Shown here piece by piece: positions 39,512 through 40,256 of a stretch of DNA of 64,000 nt. Location: positions 4,898,001 to 4,962,000 of the forward strand of contig NVQB01000001.1 of assembly GCA_002319075.1 (NCBI GenBank), written 5' to 3'. Under the pieces are notes generated by a model that was not told where the DNA came from, did no database searches, and saw only the letters and a list, made by a program, of their open reading frames with translations. Both the position numbers and the translations under genes were made by a program. The stretch's first letter is position 1. Every line of letters starts with the position of its first letter. Source of the stretch: Sphingobacteriaceae bacterium (GTDB taxonomy: Bacteria > Bacteroidota > Bacteroidia > B-17B0 > Aurantibacillaceae).

Positions 39512-39543
39512 TAAAAAGAAAGCCTTGACTAGCAAGGCTTTCT
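39512..39543 (-). terminator. Intrinsic terminator of tRNA-Leu
   Basis: 11-bp arms AGAAAGCCTTG (39517-39527) and CAAGGCTTTCT (39533-39543), loop of five. On the minus strand it follows the tRNA by 6 bases and is followed by TTTTTATATT. Confidence 0.85.
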
Positions 39544-39549
39544 GTGATG

Positions 39550-39630
39550 TACCCAGGAGGAGACTCGAACTCCCACACCTTACGGCATACGCACCTCAAG
39601 CGTACTTGTATACCATTCCAACACCTGGGC
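39550..39630 (-). tRNA. tRNA-Leu (anticodon GAG)
   Basis: 81 bases, minus strand, read by folding. Acceptor stem GCCCAGG (5' end, 39630-39624) pairs with CCTGGGT with G1-U72 as a wobble, discriminator A at 39550. D-arm contains GGAATGGTA. The anticodon stem TACGC/GCGTA is perfect, loop TTGAGGT with anticodon GAG. There is a long variable arm (type II, as in leucine tRNAs) and T-arm GGGAG-TTCGAGT-CTCCT with one G-U pair. CCA is not encoded. It decodes CUC and CUU. Its 5' third is repeated 458 bases upstream with an insertion (40046-40088). Confidence 0.92.
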
Positions 39631-39693
39631 ATGTTATACTTCCTGAAAACAATCAGGAGTAACGATTAAGCTGGCGTAAAGATGCGATTTTTT
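39603..39693. repeat. Direct repeat, copy A: 5' part of tRNA-Leu and its upstream region
   Basis: Covers the first 28 bases of tRNA-Leu (39603-39630) and 63 bases upstream of it. 39618-39693 matches 40076-40151 at 74 of 76 positions, plus the shared 12 bases TACTTGTATACC at the outer edge. It lies directly beyond the 3' end of the GIY-YIG gene. Confidence 0.9.
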
Positions 39694-39704
39694 TGTAAAA
39701 GATT

Positions 39705-39986
39705 TTAAAATTTCTCTTTTAATTTGATAACTATCTCAGGGTACTTTACTAAATTTTCTATGTACTTTTTTGATTTCATGGCTTTAATATGTGCTTCAAT
39801 TTTGCGGGCCAGATTTCCATCCAGTTCCTCGATAGAGTATACCAATTGCCAATCATCTACAATGGATGTAAACGATCGGACATAAGTTCTATTTTTATGA
39901 TCTAAAAGACGTTGATTCAAATCTAAACAACTCCCTATGTAAAATTTATTAAGACTTTTAGAAAACAAGATGTAAACAGCTGCCAT
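39705..39986 (-). CDS. GIY-YIG nuclease family protein
   Basis: 93 aa from ATG 39986; the three-residue-longer reading begins at TTG 39995. The GIY-YIG domain occupies the whole protein: AVYILFS (GIY position), KFYIGSC (YIG), catalytic Arg in LNQRLLDH, and Glu in RKIEAHIKAMKSKKYIE. Such short single-domain URI-type proteins are common in Bacteroidota, with unclear roles in DNA cutting. It lies between the two copies of the tRNA-derived repeat, in the same orientation as the tRNA, with its stop codon 12 bases from copy A. That arrangement suggests that it belongs to a small mobile unit that entered at the tRNA. Confidence 0.85.
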   Translation of the reverse strand: MAAVYILFSKSLNKFYIGSCLDLNQRLLDHKNRTYVRSFTSIVDDWQLVYSIEELDGNLARKIEAHIKAMKSKKYIENLVKYPEIVIKLKEKF

Positions 39987-40045
39987 AAAGTTCAAATCTT
40001 AAGAATAGTAATATTCCCAAAAAATAAAGCAACCCTCAGCAAACA

Positions 40046-40151
40046 TACTTGTATACCTCCCGATAGCTATCGGGACCAACACCTGGGCATGTTATACTTC
40101 CTGAAAACAATCAGGAGTAACGATTAAGCTGGTGTAAAGACGCGATTTTTT
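40046..40151. repeat. Direct repeat, copy B: interrupted tRNA-Leu 5' fragment and upstream region
   Basis: Same sequence as copy A, but the three D-loop bases (ATT at 39615-39617) are replaced by the 18-base palindrome at 40058-40075. Only the first 28 tRNA positions are present; similarity stops within the anticodon stem at 40046. This copy cannot give a functional tRNA. The flank on the far side keeps similarity as far as about 40167 (AGATTTTAAAA). Confidence 0.9.
40058..40075. repeat. 18-bp perfect palindrome
   Basis: TCCCGATAGCTATCGGGA, self-complementary over all 18 bases, placed in the D-loop position of the tRNA fragment. Palindromes of this GATAGCTATC type recur between genes in many Bacteroidota genomes (my recollection), and a degenerate relative lies at 60381-60402. 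Confidence 0.85.
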
Positions 40152-40256
40152 CTGGAGATTTTAAAAATTATATTGTATTCTGATTCATTTTCTCAGACAG
40201 CATATGAATCTTGGCGTCTGTTTCCTTAATTATGAACCTTCTATTGCAAAGTTAAA

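Follow-up and report, generated by a model that had tools for sequence, protein, structure and literature searches.

The tRNA-Leu(GAG) locus described here belongs, with a probability of about 0.7, to a family of mobile elements that we term tRNA-rebuilding GIY-YIG units, free-standing and of the homing type, which would insert into the loop of a tRNA gene and rebuild that gene. Such a unit is made up of a free-standing GIY-YIG gene of approximately 80–110 codons, a stretch of tRNA that completes the gene, and a tRNA piece with a palindromic hairpin in its loop. The structure of the units, their recurrence, the target-specific subfamilies, the empty sites, a swap of leaders, the polarity of the arrays, and one transfer between tRNA genes are established.

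According to ARAGORN, tRNA-Leu(GAG) is the sole tRNA in the window, that is, in the whole 64,000-nucleotide stretch of DNA analysed (Table 1). As the first-pass annotation had reported, the 5' part of this tRNA and its leader are present twice, 458 bases apart, with a GIY-YIG gene between the copies on the same strand. Comparison of the repeats delimited a 76-nt direct repeat (39618–39693 and 40076–40151) that comprises the leader and the first 13 nt of the tRNA with 97% identity, and the ORF between them matched Pfam. Copy A was indeed intact and copy B broken, as had been claimed, but the gap in the match between them, which the first-pass annotation had not recognised as a palindrome, was not random divergence: in copy B, the tRNA sequence is interrupted by the palindrome and then continues beyond it. 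The insertion point, formerly placed in the anticodon stem, had to be moved to the D-loop (nt 13/14), and other members of the family insert on the 3' side. The unit of 458 bp, one end of which is ambiguous inside the repeat, would contain the hairpin, tRNA nt 17–28, the GIY-YIG gene, the leader, and tRNA nt 1–13. The GIY-YIG gene, which has an alternative upstream TTG start at 39995, is the only one within this unit, in agreement with the absence of an integrase noted before, and there is no space for a second gene in the other units read. Presumably, the leader of copy B now drives the transcription of the nuclease gene; copy B may, in part, serve to provide this gene with a promoter or a terminator.

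Table 1. Features of the tRNA-Leu(GAG) locus (positions in the window)
Feature	Position	Strand	Basis
Terminator-like hairpin and T run, native 3' flank of the tRNA	39513–39543	minus	by eye, unscored
Intact tRNA-Leu(GAG), copy A	39549–39630	minus	ARAGORN
Inserted unit, 458 bp (inferred)	39618–40075	minus	empty sites and leader swap
Leader of copy A (upstream flank present twice; presumed promoter region)	39631–39693	minus	repeat and leader comparison
GIY-YIG nuclease, 93 aa	39705–39986 (from ATG)	minus	Pfam PF01541, alignments, AlphaFold2 model
Broken copy B, tRNA nt 17–28, downstream of the hairpin	40046–40057	minus	sequence
18-nt perfect palindrome TCCCGATAGCTATCGGGA in copy B, in place of D-loop nt 14–16 (AAT)	40058–40075	minus	
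Broken copy B, tRNA nt 1–13	40076–40088	minus	repeat and sequence
Leader of copy B	40089–40151	minus	repeat

On sequence grounds, the window protein is a member of the GIY-YIG nuclease superfamily, with a predicted catalytic domain that keeps the conserved Y, Y, R, H, and E. It matched the Pfam GIY-YIG profile with 34.5 bits (cut-off 22.6), a match also obtained for the 36 members tested (36/36), and in the alignments the conserved residues Y5, Y16, G18, R26, H30, and E64 were all present. The AlphaFold2 model reached a pLDDT of 93.6. The closest profiles and solved families were UPF0213, SLX1, and I-TevI, with UPF0213 (1zg2, 1ywl) as the nearest solved folds and the I-TevI structures 1mk0 and 1ln0 also among the relatives; the Foldseek E-values were weak (best 3e-3), the profile search was clear, and the match to TIGR01453 was partial and below the cut-off. 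An identity as Y1 transposase (REP/RAYT) was rejected, as the protein matches PF01541 and not PF01797. No recognised or separate DNA-binding module was found in the window protein, which consists of the GIY-YIG domain alone; this we count against the proposal, since such a bare domain gives no account of target specificity. In four other loci (L081, L149, L154, and L313), the 3' end of the nuclease frame enters the broken tRNA copy, so that the C-terminal residues or the stop codon are supplied by tRNA or hairpin sequence.

Nine GIY-YIG matches were found in the source genome, two of them in long frames of other kinds (615 and 477 aa). Five of the seven small GIY-YIG genes lie beside a tRNA gene of the same strand (Met, Arg(ACG), Ser(GCT), Leu(CAA), and Leu(GAG)), and in all five cases the opposite side of the gene holds a piece of the same tRNA; the probability of finding five out of seven within 600 bp of a tRNA (47 tRNAs, 5.65 Mb) is about 2.8e-9. 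The same genome contains a tRNA-Leu(TAA) (L002:1470–1685; G000:C1, ~812 kb) with an upstream broken 5' copy that bears TCCCGATAGCTATCGGGA in its D-loop, where the nuclease gene is absent despite the broken copy, probably a unit after loss of the nuclease. Another locus (L008:1400–1803; G000:C1, ~4.27 Mb) shows a lone relative of the window nuclease flanked on each side by short fragments resembling tRNA-Asn, the window palindrome within a terminator-like hairpin, and no intact tRNA nearby; this is probably a decayed unit. The first-pass annotation had held that a repeat without nuclease, or a nuclease without repeat, would speak against a mobile unit if seen in close relatives in patterns compatible with simple tandem duplication. 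Two such exceptions do exist, L002 and L180 (G007), the latter with a truncated nuclease ORF and no repeat, and both look like decay products.

The survey, with one genome per species, covered the genus (40 genomes), 80 named loci, and samples of the phylum. The same layout (intact tRNA, GIY-YIG gene, and broken tRNA piece bearing a hairpin) recurred across these sets and at many tRNA genes, which is what the proposed search for the nuclease beside other tRNA genes with a repeated part had been meant to reveal. In the 40 genus genomes, the small GIY-YIG genes formed two groups, tRNA-linked and UPF0213-like, clustered on the tree (7 changes versus a shuffled mean of 38.4), and a repeat flanked the gene in 49 of the 61 GIY-YIG ORFs adjoining an ARAGORN tRNA. 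When the window subfamily was searched against 84,980 species genomes, 310 relatives were found, and the titles of the 80 kept name Bacteroidota groups (e.g., Pedobacter, Mucilaginibacter, Chryseolinea, Flavobacterium, Winogradskyella, and Lutibacter). A wider profile had matches in 197 of 296 Bacteroidota genomes. Of the 192 GIY-YIG ORFs at the loci read, 135 had a full tRNA together with a partial one at no more than 500 bp, 48 only a partial one, 7 only a full one, and 2 neither. A flanking direct repeat (E ≤ 1e-5) was detected for 52 of 72 tRNA-linked GIY-YIG genes versus none of 135 intervals of 320 bp drawn at random from the window, a control that discards a repeat by chance. Two arrangements were observed, one with intact tRNA, nuclease, and broken 3' part, and the other, to which the window locus belongs, with broken 5' part, nuclease, leader, and intact tRNA. 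A single fixed arrangement was thus discarded, as insertions on the 5' side and on the 3' side were both found, even inside one subfamily. An assembly artefact is unlikely, as the pattern appears in many genomes, isolates and single-contig assemblies included.

Comparison with relatives with and without the GIY-YIG gene, as suggested at the outset, revealed 22 empty sites, where tRNA-Leu(GAG) shows only one 5' part and the tRNA lacks such a palindrome. At two loci from different species (L029 and L031), the outer, broken copy has a leader that matches empty relatives (scores 134 and 137, respectively), and the inner leader is of a different type; L029 is the clearer of the two, because the L031 contig stops inside the inner copy, which in that locus bears a hairpin as well. 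With a foreign leader inside and the native one outside, the unit therefore carries both a leader and a tRNA 5' part of its own. The two leaders of L184 do not differ over 130 nt, which would be expected for a donor of the same species or a recent event. In addition, the units at tRNA-Met (L004) and tRNA-Arg (L005) of the source genome are nearly identical. In L005, a terminator of the Met type stands after the rebuilt tRNA-Arg; the one after the displaced fragment differs from it and is presumably native to the Arg gene. The near identity of the units and the Met terminator at the Arg locus provide strong evidence that a unit moved between these two tRNA genes, with an inferred direction. The empty sites, the leader swap, and the recurrence at other tRNAs bear out the original idea that a small unit, formed by the nuclease and a replacement tRNA 5' part, entered the gene and rebuilt it.

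The GIY-YIG subfamilies track tRNA identity. On a tree of 138 tRNA-linked proteins, the target amino acid changed 29 times, compared with 77–93 in 100 shuffles, and tRNA and nuclease were encoded by the same strand in 194 cases to 1. Because the units contain no other gene and the subfamilies are target-specific, the sequences argue strongly for the nuclease itself as the mover of the unit. Tandem arrays reach six or seven units. Wherever the intact tRNA was identified, it occupied one end, and the few tRNAs that seemed to lie inside an array were either broken copies picked up by ARAGORN or weak remnants past the tRNA. A manual count over the 22 arrays whose copies differ clearly in length placed the truncated copy distally in 21 (sign test, 5e-6), with L007 as the exception, and since decayed or truncated copies are distal, the data are most simply read as the arrival of new units at the intact tRNA end. 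Four loci (L293, L294, L295, and L316) presented at least five tandem GIY-YIG units with periods of 315–450 bp, and the assembly and annotation of loci such as these are likely unreliable.

Regarding the hairpin, palindromes with a stem of at least 7 were present in 104 of 157 broken copies versus 29 of 157 intact tRNAs. In the window subfamily, a palindrome lay within the tRNA in 58 of 63 broken copies, and in the D arm in 32 of the 37 broken copies that retain it. Each target tRNA has its characteristic palindrome type and site, which vary little from genus to genus: in tRNA-Asn, most 5' copies carry TCCCGATAGCTATCGGGA at nt 14, Arg(TCT/TCG) broken copies have CCTGCC-type palindromes at nt 22, and in Val broken copies it is usually located in the anticodon arm. 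In genome G143, the palindrome core CCGATAGCTATCGG occurs twice in 4.0 Mb, both times in a broken tRNA-Asn adjoining a nuclease gene, and G123 has three copies of the palindrome, one per unit of a three-unit tandem array, all inside the nuclease gene and none elsewhere. The proposal of a general genomic repeat fallen into dead copies is weakened by these two genomes, where the palindrome is confined to the units. In the source genome, the palindrome is dispersed in 29 copies; overall, it was detected in 24 of 296 genomes, among them 9 of the 9 with the window subfamily at E ≤ 1e-24, and 15 of the 24 lack a strong match (E ≤ 1e-24) to the nuclease subfamily of the window. From the dispersed copies and the genomes without a strong nuclease match, we infer that palindromes also move or arise otherwise. 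In L314 (1146–2223), three tandem units at tRNA-Met carry the same palindrome inside the nuclease gene, with the frame truncated in all three copies.

The UPF0213-like GIY-YIG genes located away from tRNAs (L003, L061, L112, L120, L143, L145, and L147) often have arrays of other palindromic repeats on both sides (e.g., TCTCGACTACGCTCGAACTGACA and CGTCATTGCGAGGAGGNACGACGAAGCAATCTC), and direct repeats (E ≤ 1e-5) flanked 28 of 49 GIY-YIG genes not at a tRNA versus 0 of 135 controls. In the Bacteroidota, small GIY-YIG proteins may be linked to palindromic repeats in general. Such repeat-flanked genes would fit a different, though improbable, explanation in which the palindromes are the primary movers, with SLX1/UPF0213-like structure-specific nucleases that mobilise REP-like hairpins and hit tRNA stem-loops as hairpin look-alikes, the tRNA duplication serving only to rescue the cell. 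The nearest solved relatives of the protein (UPF0213 and SLX1), the dispersed copies in the source genome, the palindrome inside the nuclease gene in L314, and its presence in all the genomes with the window subfamily compared with its overall rarity agree with this possibility; the confinement of the palindrome to units in G143 and G123, the subfamilies that follow tRNA identity, and a hairpin site and type largely fixed per target argue against it.

It is quite improbable that the units are kept by selection for a service to the host (control of tRNA dosage, tRNA repair, or phage defence) instead of by mobility. Searches with the window protein and its subfamily as the only queries gave no match in phage (50,697 records), plasmid (72,556 records), or viral contig (2.9 million) collections, for which reason phage or plasmid cargo was rejected; such a result, together with the wide distribution within one phylum and weak PADLOC matches covering part of the GIY-YIG domain, could be expected of a host function, but the presence of units is patchy at any given tRNA, as the 22 empty relatives attest, distal copies are often decayed, and no particular tRNA or partner gene is required. 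A plain tandem duplication of the tRNA region with a passenger GIY-YIG gene and no mobility, which the nearly or fully identical flanks in L184 and L004 and the tandem arrays might suggest, is very improbable given the many tRNA genes with cognate subfamilies and the hairpin in most broken copies, and as sole cause it is contradicted by the foreign leader beside the native one in L029 and L031 and by the Met/Arg transfer.

According to our preferred reading of the locus as a tRNA-rebuilding unit, the nuclease would cut the tRNA gene in a loop, the D-loop for the window member, and recombinational repair would copy the unit from a donor allele or a neighbouring unit, with homology provided by the flanking tRNA sequences. 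This would leave one intact tRNA and one broken copy, the alternatives being presumably lethal or deleterious, and the hairpin in the broken copy would remove the cut site and thereby protect it. Repeated entry at the intact tRNA would lead to tandem arrays with older, decaying units in distal positions. As the intact copy retains the presumed target, self-cutting is expected to be weak, suppressed, or mostly harmless. A more complete version, which we put forward only tentatively, is that of a new minimal mobile element, integrase-less, of ~300–550 bp and phylum-wide, with lineages per tRNA isoacceptor that combine loop invasion, rebuilding, a cognate hairpin blocking re-cutting, and directional accretion.

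tRNA genes are favoured landing sites of mobile DNA, and, to our knowledge, the described tRNA-gene systems rely on recombinases or introns. Integrase-dependent elements use tRNA 3' ends as attachment sites, and the units resemble them in the insertion into a tRNA gene that is regenerated while a fragment is displaced; in contrast, the units have no integrase, are smaller than 0.6 kb, insert into an internal loop, and in many cases rebuild the 5' side. The REP sequences with their RAYT transposases and the Rickettsia palindromic elements likewise tie short palindromes to a small nuclease-type gene, but here it encodes a GIY-YIG and not a Y1 tyrosine protein, and the palindrome, located in the broken tRNA loop, differs per subfamily. 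UPF0213/YhbQ proteins are the nearest solved folds and belong to the same Pfam family, whereas the UPF0213-like genes of these genomes constitute a separate cluster, mostly away from tRNAs. With I-TevI and the group I intron homing endonucleases, the units share the GIY-YIG catalytic domain and an insertion that interrupts the presumed recognition site; however, no intron or splicing is proposed here, the intact tRNA being a separate full copy that stands complete and uninterrupted beside the unit, and the protein has no DNA-binding domain.

Among known systems, the closest relative is SegB from T-even phages, a GIY-YIG enzyme encoded by a free-standing gene, which cuts inside tRNA genes and drives the tandem amplification of tRNA and truncated segB (PMC13096335), reviewed together with other free-standing Seg homing endonucleases (PMC2988022). 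As in the Seg system, a free-standing GIY-YIG gene is found among tRNA genes as a stand-alone ORF at a defined target locus, outside any intron or intein, and the subfamilies track the tRNA. However, the phage gene lies between tRNA genes, outside its target gene, and its target sites are at a distance, whereas the units are chromosomal, interrupt and rebuild the target tRNA gene itself, carry a rebuilding piece and a hairpin-tagged broken copy, and form subfamilies per tRNA. Work cited in PMC13096335 shows donor alleles to be poor substrates for free-standing GIY-YIG enzymes, which by analogy could explain the survival of the intact copy that holds the presumed target. By the same analogy, the units would act like free-standing homing endonucleases with two additions, the rebuilding sequence and the hairpin-marked broken copy, with a substantial probability that they merit a separate class. 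A search of the open-access literature (open PMC) yielded no description of units of this kind.

If this reading is true, a sub-kilobase unit with a single nuclease that survives by rebuilding the tRNA would rank as one of the smallest autonomous mobile elements, and it would explain where part of the small GIY-YIG genes and of the broken tRNA copies in the Bacteroidota come from. It would also make testable how a bare GIY-YIG domain recognises a single tRNA, how the intact copy escapes from cutting, and whether the units spread between species by transformation or conjugation.
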